Source: Dichetophora obliterata
Taxonomy: Eukaryota > Arthropoda > Insecta > Diptera > Sciomyzidae
Assembly: GCA_963920525.1 (NCBI GenBank)
Contig: OY986438.1
Location: 123,882,920-123,946,919 of the forward strand
Direction of reading: 5' to 3'
DNA: 64,000 nt
A program made the position numbers and the translations under genes. Shown here in pieces: positions 8,225 through 47,860 of the stretch (the first letter of the stretch is position 1; the number at the start of each line of letters is the position of its first letter). The notes under the pieces are model-generated. The model was not told the DNA's origin. It saw only the letters and a program-made list of their open reading frames with translations, and did not search any database.

Positions 8225-8399
8225 GAAATTAGAAGAGGAGCTTACATCCGATGACATATCGTCTTTTAAAAATGTTCCGCTTGCTAGTGCAGAAGTAGAA
8301 AGAAGTTTTTCTGTTTACTAAAACATTTTGCGATACAATTGACGTTCTTTCAATTTTAATAACTTCAAAATGTACCTTGTAATATACTGTAAAGCTGTG
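8225..8399 (+). pseudogene. hAT transposase C-terminal dimerisation segment
   Basis: The plus-strand reading gives KLEEELTSDDISSFKNVPLA, SAEVERSFSVY, then NIL, RRSF and FKMYLVIYCKAV before a stop. The A-x-x-E-R-x-F-S pattern is the hallmark of the hAT C-terminal dimerisation region. In-frame stops after SVY and before RRSF show decay. The Harbinger element at 5947-8199 ends just upstream and probably separated this tail from the rest of the transposase, which I could not recover. Confidence 0.7.
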
Positions 8400-8439
8400 T
8401 AAAAAATTATATAAAATAAATTTTAAGTTTAGTAATGTA

Positions 8440-9372
8440 CAGGGTTGCCCATATTCGACGGACCCATCTGGCAACGCCATAACTTTTGACAAAGATGTCA
8501 GATCGCTTAATGACATACCGCGTTTGAAGCGTCAGTCCAAGCAGATTTTTACCATGGAACAATACACGCCACTCGAGCGCTCTGAAAGAGTCTTCGAAAT
8601 GGCCGAAGATGACGAGGAATTTTGGAACAAAATTATCATGTCCGATGAAGCCCATTTCACATGGAATGGGACCGTAAATAAGCAAAATTGCCGTACTTAC
8701 GCCACTGAAAATCCTCAGGAGATTCAAGAAGTGCCTCTTCATGACGAAAAAGTCACAGTTTGGTGCGGCGTTAGTGCGAAAACGGTCATTGGGCAGTTTT
8801 TCTTCCAAAATGAAAATGGCCATGCTGTTACCATCAACCAGGAGCGTTATCGCGACATGATGACCAATTTTGTGATGCCAATTATTCGTCGAAAGCGTAT
8901 GAGGCAGTTCTGGTTTCAACAAGACGGCGCTCCACCGCACACAAGTCGCATAACAATCGATTTTCTGAAGAATTTGTTTCCGGGCCGTTTGATGTCGAAA
9001 AGTGGTGATTTGGACTGGCCACCGCGTTCGCCCGATTTGACGCCGCCTGACTTCTTCTTGTGGGGATATTTGAAGTCAAAGGTTTACGTTAACAAGCCAA
9101 GGACCGTAGAAGAGCTCAAGGACAACATTCGTGAAGAAATAGCCGCTATTCCGGCCGAAATGTTGGCGAAAACGATGGAAAATGCTGCAAAAAGGGCACA
9201 ATACGCCATCAACGCCAGAGGCGGCCATTTGAGAGATATCATATTCAAAAATTGATGTAAACAAATCTACTTGGAACAAATTAAATGATTAAGATTGCCA
9301 ACCGCCAAATTTTTATTTTTTTCTTTGATTTTTTTAAAAAAAACATGGGTCCGTCGAATATGGGCAACCCTG
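8440..9372 (+). mobile_element. 933-bp DD41D mariner with internal deletion
   Basis: Perfect 28-bp terminal inverted repeats begin CAGGGTTGCCCATATTCGAC (8440-8467, and reversed at 9345-9372). A TA dinucleotide lies on both sides (8438-8439 and 9373-9374), the mariner target duplication. Full-length relatives are near 1.3 kb, like the one at 33893-35185, so about 0.3-0.4 kb is missing. The deletion is in the N-terminal coding part and left the frame open. Confidence 0.93.
8554..9255 (+). CDS. DD41D mariner transposase lacking its helix-turn-helix half
   Basis: 233 residues from an ATG in a good context (ACCATGG) to TGA. Residues 1-13 (MEQYTPLERSERV) look like the start of a rosa-type mariner transposase. 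They run straight into FEMAEDDEEFWNKIIMSDEA, which normally lies about 130 residues further on. The catalytic domain is complete: D31 in SDEAHF, D124 in QQDGAPPHT, D166 in SPDLTPPDF, with 41 residues between the last two. The frame also stays open upstream to 8524, but without an ATG. The deletion removed the two helix-turn-helix motifs that bind the inverted repeats, so the protein should not bind its own ends although its nuclease fold looks undamaged. No stop or frameshift is seen, suggesting a young element. Confidence 0.85.
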   Translation: MEQYTPLERSERVFEMAEDDEEFWNKIIMSDEAHFTWNGTVNKQNCRTYATENPQEIQEVPLHDEKVTVWCGVSAKTVIGQFFFQNENGHAVTINQERYRDMMTNFVMPIIRRKRMRQFWFQQDGAPPHTSRITIDFLKNLFPGRLMSKSGDLDWPPRSPDLTPPDFFLWGYLKSKVYVNKPRTVEELKDNIREEIAAIPAEMLAKTMENAAKRAQYAINARGGHLRDIIFKN

Positions 9373-12807: not shown

Positions 12808-15800
12808 TATATAATAAGTTGGGGATTTGCCGAAGCAGACCACAGTGGGTCCCTTTTCGTCCCCTATTGGACAAAGGGTACTACTGCTCGGAGTACTCGT
12901 ACGTGAGCATGCTCTTCGTGTAAGCATCCTTTGTCACCTCAAGCATATCCTAATAGGTTAGTTGACCAATCTCGGCTTCGCCAATAAATGGGCGTCCCAG
13001 AGTGGTCAATCTTATGCTTGCCAGCGCCGGACACTGGCACAGAATGTGTGCTGCTGTTTCCGGCTCCTCTAGGCATAACCTACACGCATCGTCCTCGGTC
13101 AGAGTCATCTTCCCGAGATGGTACATGAAGGGACCGTGTCCTGTGACCAGTGCAGTAAGCCAGCTTAAAGTCCTTCGATTGTATCGGATAACTTTTGCTG
13201 CCTCACTACGAGACCACTTCACGGCCGCCTTTGATTGCCTGCAGTTAACGGCTTCTTCCCACCTTTTACTGTGTTCCGAGTCCGTCCATTGTTTAATAAG
13301 GCCTGCCACCATGTTGTTGCCTATGGCGATACGTGGTTCTGGTCCACAGAATTCTTCTGCTGATCCTGCTCTTGCTAAAGAATCAGCTTCTTCATTCTGT
13401 TCTATGCCAGAGTGTCCTCTCACCCACATAAGTGTGAGCTCATTCGTCTGGGCGCACCTATTGAGTTTTGTAAGACATTCTATGGCCAACCTGGAAGTGA
13501 TGTCTGTCCGTTGCATACACCTAATCACAGACTGATTGTCGAGAGCGATGACAATTTTCTTGCCACTGATCCGGCCATCTATCAGGTGGTCCAGCGCATG
13601 CACTACGCCAAACATTTCTGCCTGGTATACAGACACAAACCTCCCCAACCTCAGTACACAGGATAGGCTTAACTCTTTTGAGTACACGCCTGCCCCGGCC
13701 CGGCCATTCATCAGAGAGCCGTCTGTGAATATACTGATATCGCTACCAGCGATTTCTTCACAAACGGCTCCATCCGTTATAAGAGTTTTATAACATTTTT
13801 CTGTTATTTTTACTCTCTGCCTTCCATCCATAGGCATAAACGCCTCCCTGACATCTCTCTGTACAATATCAAGGATGCGAATATGACCATGCAGGGCCGT
13901 TGCCCCATGCCACGTAGCATTTCGCAACATCCTGAGGGCTGACAGCGCCGCTGTTTTCTTTATTTCTAAATCCAACGGCAGCATACCTAACAGAACCTCC
14001 ATTGCGCTTGTTGGAGTGGTGCGTATTGCACCTGTTATTCCAACACACGCCAGCCGTTGGACTCTGTCCAGTCTCTTCTTAATGGTTTTCTGGCTGACTT
14101 TTGTCCACCAAATCACCGAAGCGTACGTGATGACAGGTCTAACCATCATAGTGTAAACCCATTTCATAGCCTCTAGGTTTAGCCCCCATTTGAGACCACA
14201 AACGCGTCTGCACTGGAACAGAACCCTCTTGGCTCTTTGAATCCTATCTTCTACATGCTCGTTCCAGTTCAGTTTGCTATCAAGGGTTACCCCTAGATAT
14301 TTAACTTTCGTGGACATGTTGATTTCAGCTCCAAAAAGTCTGAGTGGTTCTGTACTCAGGCCTACCCTCTTTCTAGTAAAGAGAATATTGTCTGACTTGC
14401 CTGCGTTTACGGTAAGGTCTCGACACCACTCCTCCACCATTCGGAGTGCTCCCTTCATGATGTCAGAGATGGTGTCAATGAACTTGCCGCGGACCACCAA
14501 CGCAATGTCATCTGCATACCCTATCGTGTGTATGCCCGATTCATCCAGTCTAACCAGTAGTGAGTCCACAGTTATGTTCCACAGGGTTGGCGATAACACC
14601 CCGCCCTGGGGACATCCTCTACTTACTCTACCTCTAGTCTTTACTCTACCATTCTGCATGTTGACAGCCCTGTGTTTGAGCATATTGTCCACCCAATTTG
14701 CTATCATTGGGCTTACATTGCATTCTGTCAGGGCTTGCCGCAGCCTTCCAAAGCATATTTTGTCGAAAGCACCCTCGATGTCCATAAATGTGGCCATCGC
14801 AATGCCTCCTGAAAATACCTCCTTTTCAGTCACTCTTACCAATTCGTGAAGAGCACTCTCCGTAGACCTACCTGCTCTATATGCATGTTGGCATCTACTC
14901 AGAGGATTTTGCGTCAGCGAGGTGCTCTCAAGACAGTCAACCATCACTCTTTCCATCGTTTTCAGGAGAAAAGATGTTAGGCTGATCGGTCTGAACGACT
15001 TTGCCTCCGCATAATCTTTTTTTCCAGGCTTCGGAAGAAAGACAACTTTCGCCTCTCTCCAGACTCTCGGAACATACCCAGTCGCTAGGCAAGTAACGAA
15101 TATACCCCACAGCCTAGGTGCAATGAGATTTTTCCCCCACTGCATCATAGCAGGGAATATACCGTCCATCCCTGATGTTTTGTACGGAGAAAATAATCGT
15201 ATAGCTCTCCTCACCCCGTCCATAGTGATCATCCTTTCGGCTTCCAGCCTGTCAACCCTGTGCATTCCTTTCTTCAAGGGTGTCCACGGGTCATCAGACT
15301 TAAAACTTCCAGGAAAGTGCACCTCCATCAGAACTTCCATGGACTCCTCTAGGTTCTCTGCCATGGTTCCATCCTTCTTTCGGATCAGTCCCACTTTGGA
15401 GAATGGGTCTTTTGAAACCATTTTCTGAAGCCCACATGCTTCTGATATAGTTTTCATCCCAGAACAGAAGTCTCTCCACGACTGCCTTTTCCGTTGTCGT
15501 ATGAGGTACTTCAGTTCCCTTTTCCGTGCCTTGTAATTTGCCCATGTTTCTGGGGTTCCCCCTCTCATGTGCAGGTTGAAGGCCTTCCTAACCTTCTTCT
15601 TCAGAGATTCAATTTCCGTGCACCACCATGGCGTTGGATCACCATCGTCTACTGACAGTATTGGGCATGCCACCTCGTAGGCTTCGACCATGGCCGAGCT
15701 AAGGTGTTTGACATGACTTTCTACTTCCACCGTATTCCCTGGTACTTTTATCGCTTTTTGGGTCAGTGTTTCCCTCAACTTCGCCTTATATTTCGCAGGA

Positions 15801-16103
15801 TCTGTATTCTTGGGAATCCTGGCCTTCCTGCTATTCCGCTGGCGTCGGATTCCGTACTTGAATTCAAACTGTATGGATCTATGGTCCGACATGGTTAGCC
15901 TATCCACGACCCTCCAATTTTTTATTCTGTTCAGAATCTTCCTGCAGATGAGAGTTACATCAATCACTTCCGCTCGCCTCGCATCAACGAAAGTCGGTTG
16001 TGCTCCTCTATTTGCTACCAACAGATTGTACCTCTCCACAAACTCAAGCAATTGCTCTCCTCTGTCGTTGTTGTTGGTGCTACCCCACGCAGTATACAGT
16101 ATT
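12808..16103 (-). mobile_element. 5'-truncated LOA-group non-LTR retrotransposon
   Basis: Bounded by an exact 13-bp duplication (12795-12807 and 16104-16116). On the minus strand it starts within the endonuclease (TAWGSTNNNDRGEQ) and ends after about 140 bp of 3' UTR with a short AT tail (TTATTATATA) instead of a long poly-A. 5' truncation with a variable-length target duplication is the signature of target-primed reverse transcription. The open frame is undamaged, so this is the youngest layer of the nest. Confidence 0.9.
12950..16103 (-). CDS. LOA-type ORF2: partial endonuclease, reverse transcriptase, RNase H
   Basis: An open frame of 1090 codons runs 16222-12950, but its first ~40 codons come from the Helitron flank and the duplication. 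LINE sequence begins at about residue 41. Numbering on the full frame: residual endonuclease with SDH at 112-114; reverse transcriptase with FMDIEGAFD (D481), GCPQGGVLSPTLWN (536-549) and YADD (D571, D572); RNase H with D834 (FTDGS), E869 (YQAEM), D895 (ALDNQS) and D947 (EEADSLA); then a zinc knuckle C1047-x2-C1050-x8-H1059-x4-C1064. RNase H after the reverse transcriptase fits the I/LOA/R1 group. Only the N-terminal endonuclease half, with its catalytic glutamate, is missing, so the copy should be unable to move by itself. No internal stop is seen. Confidence 0.92.
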
Positions 16104-16116
16104 AACTGTACCGTTA
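16104..16116. repeat. target-site duplication of the inner LINE, copy 2
   Basis: AACTGTACCGTTA, identical to 12795-12807. It marks the truncated 5' end of the minus-strand LINE. Confidence 0.9.
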
Positions 16117-18638
16117 AGTCAGTGTATATATGTTTTATGAGTATGCCAAAAAAGGTCCAAAATATTGACTTTTTACTCAAAAAATGACTCAAAAATTGTT
16201 GTTGTTGTAAAAATGAAATCAATTAATAACAGCAAATCTGACACCTTTTCATATGACATAGCATTTATTTGCAACAATTCTTCCAGCTAAGCGCAAAAAT
16301 TATTTTACTTTACCCCTTTTGATTTTTTTCGCGAAATTTATTTTTTCCAAAATGTTGTTTTTATATTTTTTACAAAAAAATCAAGTCTCAAAAATAATTT
16401 ATGTGAAAAAATTACCCCAATATCTCTTTCCAATCAAAAGTTATGACTAAAAATCTATTTTTTCATACCAGACTATGAAAAAAACTTAGTTTTGTGTTAA
16501 AATTTCTATATAAATTGAAAGTCCCCATTTATCTCTAAGAATGCAAGTTGTGTGTATAAAGTAATTACGAACATTTTGGATTATATAATATCTACTTTAT
16601 AGTGATATACTTATTTTTTGCCTCCACACCCCCCGCCCCCCTCCTGTTTAACTTGTTTTGTTGTGATGGCTCTATTTTTTCTCACTATTGTGTCACCGTT
16701 GTCACTTAGTTCTTTATCTATGGTACTTTAAATGTTGTATATATATCACAATTTTATCGAAAAGATATCTGTGAATAAGAATGCTGTAAAAGTTAATATT
16801 TTCATGTAATCAGTTTCAGCTATATGGCGATATAATAAAACATATGCGCATCTGGTTAGCACAATTATTTTATTAGTTTTGATCTGTGCGTTAAATTCAC
16901 AGATAGATGGCACCACATTTGTAAGAACTGTGGGTACAAACTATACATACACCTTGCGGTGAAAAGCTGAATAATGTTTTTTCAAAAGTTTCCTCAAATT
17001 TAACCCCACACGTTTGGGATTACAGACAGGTGGCGCTATTTTCTGCTTACAGAAGAATATCTGATGTTTTTATACAGCTAGCAGATAAGTTTTGCGAAAT
17101 ATTTTGCGAAAATGCTATTGCTACCAAACTTTTAAAAAGTAAAATAATGCAGTACTGCCAGTTTTTTCAGTCGCAGCGTCATCTAGCGTCATAAACACTT
17201 AAAAACATAGAATTGGATCAATTTAAATGTCCACCTCACTTGCTGGACTTTTTGTTGTTTTTGCTTTGCTTGCAAATGCGATTATATGATCCTGATCTCC
17301 AATCAAAAAACGCAGCTAATAGACATTTTAGTAGGTACAATCATTTTTAGCACAACGAATTTTCATAAAACATTGATAGCTAATAATGAGAAAAATGTAT
17401 ATGAAAATCAAAGTTTTACTTTTAATGCCAATAACTCCGCTGTTTTTAATATATTTCATTAACATTTTTTTTGTTAAAAAGTTCAATATGTTTTTTAATA
17501 TTTATCTCTGTTTAGACGTTAAAATGTAAATATTTCAAGGACGCATTGAGTCCCACCATAATTTTTATTTCGTTGAAAAGGTAATTGTGCTTGCTTTAAG
17601 ATTAAGTAAATATAAAAATTATTTTTAATTTTTAAAATATGTTTTTCGTACCCCTTCCTTGAATTCAATTAGCTCTTGGTTCCGCAAGAGATGGAACCAC
17701 CAACAACAAAAATTTTCCTAAACTTTTTTCGATTAATGTTCGTTCAATTACCTTTCTAACGGTAGATAAATAAAATTAAATAAAATAAAATTCAAATAAA
17801 ATTCAACATGTTTTTCATTATTCCCGATTTTAAAAAACATTTAATCGAGAAGTGTATGTTAAAATGTTTATATATGTGACTCTCGAGCAACACCGGGTAT
17901 ATCAGCTAGTTATATTAATATAAAAATCACAAATAAGTAGTAAATTCAGGTAAACGTAATTTTTTTGTCAGAAAACAAAATAAAAAATTATAAATTAATG
18001 GTATAAAAATGAGATCCTTATCTTTTTTATTTGAAATAAGTAGGAACTAAAAAATATACCGCATTCATTGGCAACGAATATTGATTTTAAGAAAGTAAAT
18101 GAATAAATACAAAGATATGGCATTTAATGCTTTAAAAAATTATCGGTTTCCTCAAGTTTAAATTTTAATCATTTTTTAATCACTAAAAATCAGAAACTAC
18201 ACAGTTTGTTTGTTTTATAGGATATCAATTCTAACTATGGGCACTGACTTTAAGTATAAGGAAATTTTTTCACCATCACATCAAGTTAAGGAGTTATGAA
18301 AAAATTTGATATATATATTTCTTTTTCCATTAACTGCTCCTAAGCGCAAACTATTGCAAAGTATTTCGCTGATATCTTTTTATGTTTTAGAAAAACATAT
18401 TGTGAAAGAAACGAAAATTTTATTAAATTTATTCAAAGCAATTTTAAGCGGCTGAAAAACCCTAATTTTTTTGAAAGTTACTTTACAAATTTTTCCATTA
18501 TACACAAATCTGCAAAGGTCAAATGAATGCTTAAACTTCAAAGACAATGATTCAGACAATTCCCGGTAGCAAATATGTTTATTGTAGCAAATATGTTTAT
18601 TTAAAAAAAAAAAATTAAAAAAAATGGTAAGACCTAAT

Positions 18639-30779: not shown

Positions 30780-33200
30780 TCGACAAGATTAACAAAATTA
30801 ATCAGTGGAATAAATTGGTTGCTGGTAATTGGTCATAAATCAACATATAGCTTACAATAAATTTTTAAGTAAATTCAAATCTTATATAGATCTAGCCACT
30901 TCTTCTAAATGCGTAAATAACAAAAAAAAAATGTAAAACTAAAACCGTGGATTACAAATAATATCCTACGTAAAATAAAACTAAAAAATAAACTTCAGAT
31001 GAAATCGTTAAAACATCCTTATAATAGTTCTTTAAAAAATCGCTTAAACAAACTGGTAAAAGAATTAAAACATGATATTCCTCTAGCTCGTGACAGTTTT
31101 TACCAAAATGCACTTCATAAGTCCAGAGGCAATTTGAAAAAAGAATGGGAATTAGCAAACAAAATTACTAGTAATTATAAAAAATGTGACTCAGAAATAA
31201 ACTTGAATATTAATGGTGCTCCTTCTTCTGACGAAAATTTAATAGCCAACTCCTTTAATGATTTTTTCGTATCAATAGCTAAAGCTGCTGCTCATAGCCA
31301 TACAAACTCAGAGCATTACGATATATTACCTGATCGGCCTGCAATACATAGCTTCTTTTTCGAAAGTATTTCTGCAATGGAAATTATTAAACTAGTAAAT
31401 TCTCTCGATAACAGCAATTCTTGTGGTGTTGACAACATTCCTAACGCTCTGCTTAAGAAAGTTGCTTTCAATATATCCGATATATTAGCTTATATCTTTA
31501 ATTTCAGTGTCCAGTCTGGTGACTTTCCACCTGAACTCAAAAGCGCTGTGGTCATTCCCCTCTTTAAAAAAGGCGATCAAAGAAATATGCAAAACTACCG
31601 ACCTATCTCTCTGCTTCCATCCATTGCTAAAGTTTTTGAAAAAGCAATGAAAAAGCGTATTCTTAATTTTCTTTTTAAGAACTCTTTTCTTAGTCATAGT
31701 CAGTTCAGCTTCAGAGAAGGTAAATCAACGGAAGACGCTCTACTTGACTTTCTTACCTTCGTGAATAAAGCAATAGGTGATAAAATGTTGACTGCATCAC
31801 TTTTTGTTGATATCACTAAAGCGTTCGATATGGTGGATCATTCAATTCTTCTAGATAAGCTGAATTCCATTGGGTTTAGAGGGGCAACTCTAAGTAACAT
31901 ATCTAAGTAACCGTATTCAAAGGGTAAAAATTGGTAACACTATTAGTAACCCAGCCACTACTAATATTGGTGTTCCACAAAGTACTGTCCTTGGCCCAAT
32001 TTTGTTTCTTATTTATCTGAATTCAATTTTTCTGCAAAATTGGAGCGGTCGTATTACAGCGTTTGCGGATGACTTGGGCATTTCATATAAAACATCTTCT
32101 ATGCTTGAACCTACTGCAATGATAAACGCTGATATAGAATTGCTGAGAAAATGGTTTAGCAGGCACAAACTAATTATAAGTAACAAAACTAAATTGTTGT
32201 TTTTTAAACTAGCCACTCAAGATCTCTCAGCAATATGTTTTAAATACCACGACCCGTCTTGTAAAAAGTTTGTCCTCTATTCCAATGATCCAAATTCATA
32301 TAATCCAGTATGCAACTGCGACATGAACTGCTTTGAAATTGAAATTGTCAATAATTTTAAATATTTAGGCATAATAATAGACAATAAATTAAGCTGGAAT
32401 GAATATTCAAACTCTCTAAAGACTTATTTTCAATCTGTTGTAATAAATTCTATCGCCTTCGTAACTTATGTTCTTTTAAAGTCCTAAAAATGGTCTACTT
32501 TGGTCTGTTTCACTCTAAACTCAGTTATGGTATCTGTTGTTGGGGTGGAGCTTACAATGTCAAATTGAAACCATTGCTAACTTTACAAAAATGCATAATT
32601 AAACTAATTTTTAATGAAAGACGACTGTCGCCTTCATTTGAATTATTTAAATCTGCTAATATTTTGCCTATTAAACACTTATTTTATTATAAAGTTTTGG
32701 AAGTATTCTCTAAAAAACACAGCAGCCTAATTTCTTATACAGTGAGTCATTATAATCTCAGGAGAGTGAACTCTGTATTGATTGCACCATACCGCACCAC
32801 TGGTTACCGGAATAGCTTTTCAATTGTAGCTTGTCGCCTATACAACATGCTACCTGCTAGCATTAAAGTCATAAACTATATGAAGTCGTTTCTGAGGCAC
32901 CTGAAGTCCTGGCTTTTTAACTTCTACTTGGATAACATTGATTTACTCCTGCAGACTTTAGTCTAGTATCCTCTCCTTTCATCAAATTTTATACTTCTTC
33001 TATTTTTTTCCTTCTATTTTTCATTCTATCTGTCTTTTCTCTTTACTCCGCACATATTTAAAATTTAAAATTAAATGTAAGTTACATTTTAATATTGACT
33101 CGTGATGGGTAACACAGTAATTTATTTACTCCACCTATCAGTACCTTATCTCTTACCTTATTATACTTATTTTATGTTTTATATATAAATTTTAGTCATA
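30780..33200 (+). pseudogene. CR1/Jockey-group LINE, 5'-truncated ORF2
   Basis: From about 30780, after small frame changes, comes the pre-RT region (QWNKLVAGNW, IDLATSSKCVNN, KPWITNNILRKIKLKNKL). An open frame at 30999-31910 then holds PPELKSAVVIPLFKKGD, NYRPISLLPSIAKVFEK and LFVDITKAFDMVDHSILLDK. After a frameshift near 31905 come GVPQSTVLGPILFLIYLN (a Ser where Gly is usual) and FADDLGISY at 32002-32487. After a stop at 32485, YGICCWGGAYNVKL and FSIVACRLYNMLPASIK run to TAG at 32966. There is no RNase H. The T/C-rich 3' UTR runs to about 33200. The copy is dead. Confidence 0.85.
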
Positions 33201-42756: not shown

Positions 42757-44408
42757 ATGCGCACACGTTACATTACCAACAAAAACTGCCCTTGGTTTAC
42801 TGAGTCTGTCAAATTAGCACTTAAAAAAAGGAACAGAGCTTACAGCAAGTGGAAGCGGCATACCAATTTATTAAACTGGGAGGAATATAAAAAAGCCAGG
42901 AATGAAGCTACAAATTCTATAAGAGTTTCCAAAAAGTTGTACTTTATGTCAAAATTAAATCCAATTTTACCATCTAAACAGTTGTGGAAAAACCTGAAGA
43001 GCTTCGGTGTATATAATAAAGAAACCGAACCGTGTGATATTAACCCAAACTTGCTAAATGATTATTTCGTTACTAATACTACATCTACGGCCTCCTTTAT
43101 ATCTGCATATGTTGATGAACCTTTCAGTATGTGTCCCTATGAGTTTCAATTTAGCACAGTGAATGAAATGGACATAGCACGTTGTATTAAAAAAATAAAA
43201 TCAAACGCCACTGGTGTTGATGGCATCAGCATTAAATTTATTAAATATATTTTACCTTATGTACTGAGTCCACTTGCACATATTATAAATCAGTGTTTTA
43301 CCACTTCCAGTTATCCTAATCTGTGGAAAGTAGCAACTGTTATTCCCATCGCGAAAAAAACCAATGCTTGCGGACCATCCGATTTCCGTCCAATAAGCTT
43401 ATTGTCTTCGTTGTCCAAAATATGCGAGCACCTCATGGCTGAACAAATTGTCCACCATATAAATACTTTTGACCTAATACATAATTTGCAGTCGGGCTTC
43501 CGACCTGGACATAGCTGTTCCTCTGCTATGGTAAAAATCTTGGATGACATTAGAGTGCCATATGATATGGGCCATTTGAGCTTACTCTGCCTGTTAGACT
43601 TCTCTAAAGCGTTTGACACCGTGAACCATTTTTAACTGTGTAGAAAACTCATGCATAACTTTGGTTTTTCTGATACGTCTGTTCGTTTCATGTTTAGCTA
43701 TTTAAATGGCAGGTCTCAAAGAGTAAGGGTAAAAAACAATTTCTCGTCTTTAAAAGCTACCAGAAGTGGAGTTCCGCAAGGCTCAGTTCTTGGCCCAATT
43801 CTGTTTACCATGTTCATAAATGATATTTTTAGAACATGCAATCATGTAACCATGCATGCTTATGCTGATGACCTGCAGTTGTATATGTCCAGACCCAATT
43901 GTATCTCTGAAGATTTATGTGCAAGAGTGAACGAAGATTTAAATTTGGTGGCAAATTGGGCCAAAGCTAATATGCTGGAATTGAATCGTCTTAAATCGTA
44001 TGTGTTACCGATTTCACAAACACCTTATATGAATCTCGATGTTCCCCCTATTTTCCTAAATGGCGTTGAGCTAAAATTTGTAAGAAAGGCTTCTATTCTC
44101 GGCTACCAAATAAACTCGTCGTTGTCTTGTGAAGATCATGTAAACTCCTGCGTTAGTAAAATTTATTATGTTCTCAGAAATCTTCGGATGACTGCTGCGT
44201 TCGTACCTGTTGAAACTAGAAAGAAGCTTGTCTTACAGCTGTTATTGCCAATATTTTCTTATGCGGAAGTCGTTTATAGCAAACTTGACTCGAGATCTAT
44301 GCACAAAATTCAAGTTGCATTTAACAACTCTACACGCTATGTTTATGATCTTCGGAGGTATGAGCATATAACACCCTTTAATAAACAGTTACACTGTGCA
44401 ACAACCAA
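42757..44408 (+). pseudogene. CR1/I-group LINE ORF2, 5' part, one internal stop
   Basis: Begins near MRTRYITNKNCPWFTESVKL and KKRNRAYSKWKRH (pre-RT linker). The reverse transcriptase follows: WKVATVIPIAKKTNACGPSD, FRPISLLSSLSKICEHL, LLDFSKAFDTVNHF, then TAA at 43633-43635 in the same frame, then RSGVPQGSVLGPILF and MHAYADDLQLYMS, and thumb motifs (ILGYQINSSLSCEDHV, SYAEVVYSKLD, YDLRRYEHITPFNKQ). The single stop is the only damage up to the break at 44408, where a DNA element is inserted. The C-terminus resumes at about 47165. No endonuclease is seen upstream, so it is 5'-truncated. Confidence 0.88.
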
Positions 44409-44516
44409 AATGGGAATGGGATGAGACCAACTGCAAATGAAAGTTGACATTATCCATAACAAAACCTCCAAGGATTTTTTTTAGTTCAGTGCGAGATTTT
44501 TTTTTACACGCATTTG
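44409..44516 (+). repeat. left terminal inverted repeat of the 2.75-kb element
   Basis: Complementary to 47053-47161 over about 107 bp with about five substitutions. Carries ACCAACTGCAAATG and TACACGCATTTGA at its inner end. Confidence 0.85.
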
Positions 44517-44796
44517 ATCAAAGAGTAAATAATCTGGCATTACTCAACTCTGAACGGCCATCTTTAAAAACAGCCAATCACAACTTAGCTTCTATCCAAC
44601 AGAATTGCTGTATGTATAGTACTTTTGGTTAATCAAATATAGACGCTTGGGTTCGACAGTCAACAGTCAACAAAAAAAATTTTGTAAAATTTTTGTATTT
44701 CAATAAAGAAATATAAATTTTAAATTTGTATATTGTAACAAATTCATTTTATTTCAATTTGTGTAGTAAGAGAATCTACTAAGACAACAACTGAAG

Positions 44797-46678
44797 ATGG
44801 CGCAAAGCCGGAATGAATGTTTACAGCATTTGAAATATTATTGTTATATTTGTGGAAAATATAATAGGCAAAAAAATTTGGTGCCAAAGTATGAGAGCAT
44901 GAAACAATTGTATTTAGAGTATTTTGGAGCAGAGGTTATTGAGAATGTGGATTGGGTACCTGAAAAAGTGTGCAGAACTTGCAATGGTTCTTTAACTAAA
45001 TGGTCACAAAACAAAAGGAAGTCAATGCAATTTGGTGTTCCAATGTTATGGTACAATCCAGGTAATTTTTTTAAATTTTTGCTTGTAGAAAACATGTATT
45101 TTATCAAATATATTAATTTTATTTCTGAGGTATACACATTAAATCACAGTGTTATATGTGTTTAAATAGTATTAAAGGAAGAAACAGATATAATAGAGCA
45201 GGCATGGTATATGTTGGTACACAACATGCAGAATTACCTAAACAACATTCAGAGTTTATTCCAATACCAAAACCAGTAAGTGTAGATGTAACCTCCGTAG
45301 TATCTACAAATGTTGCAGAGACAATTAGAGACGATCCTACTTACGAGCCTTCTGAGCTTAACAATCGTATGATACCAATATCACAAAACTGGTTAGATGA
45401 AGTTCTAAAACGCGTGAATATGTCGAAGCGTGATTCAGAGTATGTTGCACGTAAACTAAAAGAAAACAATTTACTAGAACCTGGTGTTAGAATAACGGCT
45501 TATCGTAATCGTCAAGCAGTATTTCAACAATATTTCTTTGTCAACGAAGAAAATACATTCGTTTACTGTAATGATATTGAAAAACTTATGGCAGAAATGG
45601 GTATGAAGTATGTTCCTCATAAATGGAGATTATTTATAGATTCTTCAAAAACCAGTATGAAAGCAGTTTTATTGTATACCAATAACAAAAAACCAAGCAT
45701 TCCAATAGCATACAATTTGAATACTAAAGAAACCTACGAATCAGTAAAATCTCTACTGGAATCAGTGAATTATGAAAATCATAAATGGCGTATATGCTGT
45801 GATTTAAAAATGGTTGCCTTGCTTTGTGGCCTACAAGGTGGCTATACGAAAAACATGTGCTTTATATGCTTGTGGAACACACGTTACAAAGGCAATCAAT
45901 ATCAAAAGGCTGACTGGGAAAAGAGAGACGATTTTCGTGTTGGAACGGCAAATGTTATCCATGAACCCCTTGTACCAGCAGATAAAATATTGCTACCACC
46001 ACTTCATATAAAACTGGGTCTTTTCAAAAATTTTGTAAAAGTGTTTTCTGTAGATGAACCAGCTTTTACTACTTTAAGATCTAAATTTCCACGACTCAGT
46101 GCTAGCAAAGTTAAAGAAGGTATTGTATAAAAATAAAATAAATGATCTTAAAAAATGAATTTACAATATTTTTTTCTCATTTTACAGGAATGTTTAATGG
46201 TCCAGACATTAGAAGATTAATGAAAAATAATGATTTTGATAATTCATTGAATCCAAATCAAATAATTGCATGGAATGCAATTAAAGACGTGATAGAAAAT
46301 GTTCTTGGTAAGAAACGAGAAGCAGATAGTGCAGAAAGAGTTAAATGTCTCTTGAAAGCCTTTGAGGTACTTGGTGTGAATATGTCACTAAAAGTTCATT
46401 TTCTCCATCATCATATGGATTGGTTTGAAAAACAACTTTCCACCGAATCTGATGAGCAAGGTGAACGTTTTCACCAAGTAGCTTTAACCATGGAAACTAG
46501 GTACAGAGGGAAGAGACTAGACTCTATGTTAGGAGACTTATGCTGGTGGTTAAAGAGAACAACCGATGAAGAGGATACTGATGAAGAGCAAGAACTACAA
46601 ACATACAGACATTCACCACCTACTACTTCTTTTGCTAATTCAAACATGGAAATCGACAGTGATAGTGATGATGATTAA
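44797..46678 (+). CDS. putative transposase-like protein, 581 aa, three exons
   Basis: Proposed exons 44797-45061, 45130-46119 and 46188-46678 with two 68-bp GT-AG introns. They total 1746 nt, and the frame closes at TAA. Residues: C16-x2-C19 and C59-x2-C62 (a ZAD-like zinc-binding arrangement), KRKSMQFGVPMLWYNP (73-88), C96-x2-C99 across the first junction, LFIDSSKTSMKAVLL (D259), RICCDLKMVALLCGLQGGYT (D313), C332-x2-C335, ILLPPLHIKLGLFKNFVK (379 on), KVKEGMFNGPDIRRLM across the second junction, MSLKVHFLHHHMDWF and DEQGERFHQ (E511), then an acidic tail. From memory, proteins with this wording recur in many copies in arthropod genomes, without a functional name. D259, D313 and E511 could form a DDE set; that is inference. 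A polyadenylation signal lies at about 46715. Confidence 0.82.
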
Positions 46679-47052
46679 TAGGATCAACAACGAGATCCAA
46701 GCATTTTTTCCCAATAAAAAACGCAATTTTTCCCATAAAAATAGAATTTTTGTAATAGTAACGTACTGAGAATAAAAAATGGTACTTCATAATATCATTA
46801 GAAATTTATTTTACCATGATGCCAACATCAAAAATTGATTTTCAACCTAAAAAAAAGGAAGTACACCGTTTTTTCTATGAAAATCTACCAGAAATTGCAC
46901 CATTTGTGTGACAGCGCCATCTAGCGTGAGTTTTAGGTATAAATAAATATCAAAAATGAATTTCTCGACCCCAAAAACAGTTAGATACCACAACTTTCCA
47001 CGTTACTAAAAATAAATAAAAATTATTTTATCAAATTTTCGATCACCAACTT

Positions 47053-47161
47053 CAAATGCGTGTAAAAAAAAATCTCGCACTGAACGAAAAAAAAACCCTT
47101 GCAGGTTTTGTTATGGATAATGTCAACTTTTATTTGCAGTTGGTCCCATCCCATTCCCATT
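47053..47161 (-). repeat. right terminal inverted repeat of the 2.75-kb element
   Basis: Inverted partner of 44409-44516. The plus strand reads TCAAATGCGTGTA at the inner edge and CATCCCATTCCCAT at the outer edge. Confidence 0.85.
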
Positions 47162-47860
47162 CCGAAAGTTCGATTTTGTGTCACTGTGTTATTAGACCGT
47201 AACTTGCTCAGCTATCTTGAAGCAAGAAATTGCATTTTCTTACATAAGGTCATCCACTCTCGTTGTCCAAGATATCTATTTGAGAAGATAACGTTTTGTA
47301 GGTCAAACAGAAGCATGAACCTTGTTATTCCGAGGCATAACTACCTAAACTCTAGCCGATTGTTTTTCGTTAGTGCCATAAGACTATGGAATTCACTTCC
47401 AAGAAACATTAAAACAATTTCCAACCCTAACCACTTTAAGCATTTAATCTTCACCTATTTCTCTTAACTCTATCTCTCCTGTTTCTGATCTTGTTATCCT
47501 TTACTAAAACATAAATTAATTTTTAATTACTTTCTTAAAATTTTTTCCTTTCAATATAATTTTTTTGGCATTATTATCTTAATAATTTTTATATATATTT
47601 GAAACAGTTTTCTTTTGTATTTTTATCCTCGAATAATTGAATTGTATTCCGTTTTATATGATGACTCAGTAAAATAATCTGAATTTTTTTTTTTTTTTTT
47701 TAATTAATATCTCTATAATTACTTTAGTAATTATAGTAATAGTTTATTATAATTTATTTAATTAGTTGTTATCAATTTTTATATGCGGCATGTAAAAGAT
47801 TTAAGTCTTAAATATCAACAATTTGTCTTAATAAATAATAATAATAATAATAAAAATGTC
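47162..47860 (+). pseudogene. CR1/I-group LINE, C-terminal end and 3' UTR
   Basis: Resumes the LINE broken at 44408: LLSYLEARNCIFLHKVIHSR, CPRYLFEKITF, IRLWNSLPRNIKTISN then NHFKHLIFTYFS and TAA at 47465-47467. RLWNSLP is the usual tail motif of such ORF2 proteins. A ~390-bp 3' UTR ends in an (AAT)n run at about 47835-47856, the kind of tail known from I-group elements. Confidence 0.8.

Follow-up and report, generated by a model that had tools for sequence, protein, structure and literature searches.

The 64,000-bp window analyzed here (Dichetophora obliterata assembly GCA_963920525.1, contig OY986438.1, positions 123,882,920 to 123,946,919) carries a 2797-bp DNA transposon that lies within the reverse transcriptase frame of a long interspersed nuclear element (LINE). 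The transposon contains a gene of three exons, and its two ends are unequal: the terminal heptamer lies 10 bp from a shared inverted repeat on the left and 20 bp from it on the right, in 16/16 copies of this family (F1) in the genome. It is, at a probability of about 0.93, an autonomous Chapaev3 (CMC/CMCT group) DNA transposon; within that known group the element makes up a new family. Its features and those of the host LINE are as follows (window coordinates, strand in parentheses).

43636..44391 (+): LINE reverse transcriptase frame, left part, ending with the left TTA (RVT_1 E 6e-15 for 43636-44388)
44389..44391 (no strand): left target site duplication TTA (3-mers identical in 13/16 copies)
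44392..47188 (+): whole transposon, window copy of family F1, 2797 bp (ends and duplication set by comparison of 16 copies)
44392..44398 (+): left terminal heptamer CACTGTG
44399..44408 (+): short spacer, 10 bp (10 bp in 16/16 copies)
44409..44517 (+): left copy of the shared inverted repeat
44797..45061 (+): exon 1, 88 codons and one base, cysteine-rich N-terminal domain with a weak zf-AD match
45062..45129 (+): intron 1, 68 bp, GT-AG (the relative P0003 has a retained-intron frame at the same place)
45130..46119 (+): exon 2, with predicted catalytic D259 (FIDSSK) and D313 (DLK), C332-x2-C335 and L380-H381
46120..46187 (+): intron 2, 68 bp, GT-AG (retained-intron frames at the same place in P0009, P0012 and P0029)
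46188..46678 (+): exon 3, including the stop codon; H489-x4-H494, and a candidate third catalytic residue in the E508/E511 region
47052..47161 (-): right copy of the shared inverted repeat
47162..47181 (-): long spacer, 20 bp (20 bp in 16/16 copies)
47182..47188 (-): right terminal heptamer, CACAGTG read inward
47189..47191 (no strand): right target site duplication TTA
47192..47467 (+): LINE reading frame, right part, whose frame rejoins the left part

A first-pass annotation of this DNA, made from the letters alone, took 44409-47161 to be the whole element, bounded by inverted repeats of about 107 bp. The repeats are present (110 nt as measured, 95% identical), but the element is larger: homology among the copies extends 17 bp to the left and 27 bp to the right of those borders, and the aligned copies run on to CACTGTG and CACAGTG ends, which rules out 44409 and 47161 as the true termini. 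Beyond CACTGTG and the complement of CACAGTG, similarity among the aligned copies stops. The 3-mers that flank these limits agree in 13/16 copies (12 TWA and one TAG), and 35 alternative combinations of left and right flank alignment gave agreement in only 0-5/16. Because heptamers and matching 3-mers stand at the limit of homology, the window element is placed at 44392-47188 with TTA on each side. A 5-bp target duplication was found in 0/16 copies and is ruled out. The termini are CAC...GTG, the left in 15/16 copies and the right in 16/16. The proposed insertion inside a LINE is borne out, in that omission of the element and one TTA restores the LINE frame (...PFNKQLLDRNLLSYLEARN...).

The genome that contains the window (1.31 Gb in 76 contigs) was searched with the left repeat, and the 34 matches resolve into 16 two-ended elements and two single ends, so that the element is indeed multi-copy, as had been supposed. 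Three of these copies are long (2787-2797 bp): in the window copy and L043 both pairs of splice sites and the frame of 581 codons are preserved, and L039 has a frame shift. The other 13 are internally deleted, with one deletion common to L037, L040 and L041 at three places and another to L032 and L033. Identical deletions at separate places show that such copies moved with borrowed transposase. Compared with the window copy over ungapped columns, 13 of the 15 others have an identity of 98.3-99.2%, L034 one of 96.6% and L036 one of 92.8%. The window element is young and apparently intact, and the earlier judgment that it is recent holds in the sense of fairly recent. The roughly 5% difference between its repeat arms gives no date for the insertion, since it is largely common to other copies; dating by arm divergence was therefore ruled out.

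The gene has the two exact 68-bp GT-AG introns that were first described, and joining its exons leaves 581 codons open. The proposed splicing draws support from relatives, in whose predicted proteins intron sequence is translated at one or the other of these two positions. The first-pass view of a DNA transposon that carries an intact transposase gene of its own stands. The protein matches no Pfam family at the cut-off, neither the EnSpm/CACTA model nor that of the RAG1 catalytic core among them; its zf-AD match is weak (E 9e-4) and below the cut-off. When 60 homologues were compared with Pfam at E <= 1, their best E-values were also weak, with zf-AD in 15/60 and a weak RAG1_imp_bd match (E 0.0064) in 1/60. 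The matches that bear on an N-terminal Chapa zinc domain (RAG1 N-terminal type), a feature of Chapaev3, are all of this weak kind. The C(2)C, LH and H(4)H motifs are all present in the window protein (C332/C335, L380-H381 and H489/H494), and 53/60 homologues have the set in this order. The transposase is predicted to fold like RAG1 and Transib, HzTransib and RAG1 being the closest solved structures to the predicted fold of the homologue P0002.

The first-pass annotation could map the protein to none of the superfamilies it listed, a list from which Chapaev was missing, and it is to Chapaev3 that the element maps. PMC4079192 describes Chapaev3 by insertion between A and T with a TWA duplication, by CAC...GTG termini and by C(2)C/LH/H(4)H motifs, and the assignment follows from the match of the TWA duplications, termini and motifs to these; it is one by described features, the named Chapaev3 sequences being known here by description. 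The outer context is the exception: A and T outside TWA are said to be "always" present in Chapaev3 insertions (PMC4079192), and the full A-TWA...TWA-T context occurs in 10/16 copies, the window copy having G...T instead. The fold, together with heptamers that agree with the CAC-x-x-TG type, could also suggest a Transib or RAG-like (ProtoRAG/TransibSU) transposon, and the N-terminal region (residues about 36-107, A2 profile) aligns once, weakly but colinearly, with the N-terminal part of RAG1 (21wb_A, E 1.2). This identity is nevertheless very improbable: duplications are of 3 bp in 13/16 copies and of 5 bp in none, the RAG1 catalytic-core model is not matched, and no RAG2-like gene was seen among the frames of at least 50 aa in 43800-47800, which were read by eye and not Pfam-scanned. 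In PMC4411706 Transib and RAG1 share a group with both Chapaev and Chapaev3, and RAG1 is grouped with Chapaev (DUF1280) in PMC3985635, so kinship of fold with RAG1 is expected and not new.

The remaining suspicion, an unnamed superfamily outside CMC and Transib, draws on the weak Pfam results, on the absence of any NCBIfam match for 3/3 homologues, and on the LPPLHIKLG and GERFHQ motif strings, which were not found in any paper of the literature search. It too is most unlikely, since the element has the TWA duplication, termini of the CAC/GTG type and each of the three motifs published for Chapaev. A viral or bacterial origin was rejected (no relative was confirmed in viral or other genome contigs, and 0/493 BFVD matches had E <= 1e-3), and N-RAG-TP of Aplysia was tried as a member of the same family from accounts in PMC8355894 and PMC2996935 and set aside as an unconfirmed lead.

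The inequality of the ends extends to other Chapaev3 families of this genome. A protein search for Chapaev3 loci gave at least 123 matches, 77 of 9467 first-look candidates being scored, and ends were sought blind at 52 loci as CAC at both ends with identical flanking 3-mers, within a set distance of the inverted repeat, the offset between the two ends being unused. Ends were resolved at 34/52 loci, and the offset is 9-11 bp in 34/34; 8 loci had no inverted-repeat pair and 10 no candidate end pair. A repeat of the search with 43 of the 52 loci (leaving out L049, L050, L052, L054, L057, L063, L068, L071 and L083) found 42 with a repeat pair and 34 resolved. Shuffled flanks, a control that preserves base composition only, gave 0.007 candidates per locus, 3.2% of those at 9-11 bp. 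The eight resolved families have offsets of 10, 11, 10, 10, 10, 10, 10 and 10 bp; their short spacers are 9-16 bp and their long ones 19-26 bp, most commonly 10/20 and 12/22. F2 is represented by a single resolved locus, and its protein family is the closest to the modelled homologue P0002. In F7 (L056) and F8 (L081) the flanking 3-mers differ and the blind search gave no resolution; their offset of 10 comes from ends picked by eye. L069 has one additional, unlikely candidate end pair at an offset of 40.

F4 (L055, L070 and L072-L078) is very numerous, with arms of up to 516 nt that are 97-99% identical. Both of its ends carry CACAGTG, and its spacers are 12 and 22; its short ends give 239 matches genome-wide (control 0), and by reading, no two of 100 listed short ends of these 239 lie within 10 kb. 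In F4-F8 the inner arms are 98-100% identical (50 compared columns), and the outer 16-33 bp differ. Terminal boxes look related between families, CACAGTG-ACACAAAAT being present in F1 and F4. In a midpoint-rooted tree that includes homologues from outside the genome, the families fall on both sides of the root (F3 and F5 against the rest), a deepest split that is not strongly supported (89/93). F3 (L060-L068) is a second Chapaev3 family, of nine copies with 569-aa frames without stop; those compared are about 98.5-99.5% identical, and it is perhaps also recent. In one of them, L060, the long end lacks about 20 bp, which reverses the 10-bp offset in sense within the family.

An offset of about one helical turn resembles, by analogy, the 12/23 spacing of V(D)J signals. 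The 12- and 23-bp spacers of the RAG system are 11 bp apart in length, and good pairing is limited to unlike signals. The simplest inference from the offset is that a Chapaev3 transposase would likewise need unlike ends, and we hold at even odds that Chapaev3 has a one-turn/two-turn pairing rule, in which a RAG1-fold transposase with no RAG2 partner would pair one end whose heptamer and inner block are about 10-12 bp apart with another where they are about 20-22 bp apart. Weighing against such a rule are the facts that ends are inherited by descent among the copies of a family and that the terminal boxes look related across F1 and F4, as would suit an ancestral accident passed on without function. 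That explanation is a serious one, although we would not quite give it an even chance: eight families, with inner blocks that look unrelated by eye and proteins that, F2 excepted, are roughly 40-50% identical to P0002, all have an offset of 10 (once 11), and where near-identical arms of 300-500 bp have been homogenized inside, the terminal 16-33 bp are still unequal.

In the mechanism that we propose, the spliced 581-residue DDE transposase, with a RAG1/Transib-type RNase H core and an N-terminal cysteine-rich domain, would pair two unequal ends, each composed of a terminal CAC[A/T]GTG heptamer and an inner repeat block 10 or 20 bp away. The transposase would cut at CAC, and the element would insert into an AT-rich site with duplication of the 3-bp TWA. 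Internally deleted copies move by the same ends. Under a pairing rule, the catalytic core would lie over the heptamer, with another domain over the inner block one or two turns off. The ends, duplications, copies, frame, motifs and a homologue's predicted fold are shown here; we infer the chemistry of cutting and pairing, any function of the one-turn offset and activity at present.

Elsewhere in the window, an open frame of 1090 aa at 12950-16222 (-) matches reverse transcriptase, RNase H and endonuclease and is seemingly an intact LINE, and a 329-aa frame at 30921-31907 (+) matches part of a reverse transcriptase (RVT_1 E 1.2e-15). A 290-aa frame at 8383-9252 (+) matches 0 Pfam families at E <= 1e-3; from its motifs it is presumably a Tc1/mariner-type transposase.

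The right heptamer of the window element, CACAGTG, equals the consensus heptamer of the recombination signal sequence (RSS). Among known systems the nearest are the Chapaev3 elements Merrow, Garfield and Conan, which according to PMC4079192 share the TWA duplication, CAC...GTG termini, C(2)C/LH/H(4)H motifs and internally deleted derivatives. Their transposases are of 556-562 residues (Garfield 556) against 581 here, the early (first) exon of Merrow has 78 residues against 88 codons, and there is one intron in Merrow and Garfield and none in most Chapaev3 against two here (PMC4079192). The main text of PMC4079192 is without the words asymmetr-, spacer, subterminal or helical, and the string asymmetr- does not occur in PMC4411706 or PMC12730594. 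As no report of end asymmetry in Chapaev was found in the literature searched, the one-turn offset in Chapaev3 may be new; Repbase Reports and supplements lie outside that search and may record it. CACTA/EnSpm elements likewise have CAC termini and a 3-bp duplication, along with the CMCT-group motifs C(2)C and H(3-4)H (PMC12730594), but no EnSpm/CACTA Pfam model is matched by the window protein. The element fills an annotation gap, in that it belongs to a widespread group of Chapaev3 without a name in Pfam.

Transib (HzTransib, PDB 6pqx) differs in its 5-bp duplications and in that most of its families have symmetric ends (PMC8289069). RAG1/RAG2 and ProtoRAG have in common with the window element a RAG1-type catalytic core, by predicted fold, and unequal spacers, which are 12/23 in the RSS and 27/31 in ProtoRAG (PMC7204232 and PMC8289069); for invertebrate RAG-like elements, a relative insensitivity to asymmetry of the ends has been proposed (PMC7204232). 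They differ from it in the 3-bp duplication found here, in a RAG2-like gene, not seen here among the frames read by eye, and in the inner block, which here is no nonamer and varies between families. A one-turn asymmetry in eight families of another RAG1-fold branch, in a genome where several copies are intact, makes the question of where the 12/23 asymmetry of the antibody-gene signals came from testable in a simpler single-protein system. If the pairing rule is true, a 12/23-type principle is open to study in an insect-type transposon with intact copies, and it either predates the RAG1-RAG2 pair or arose twice.
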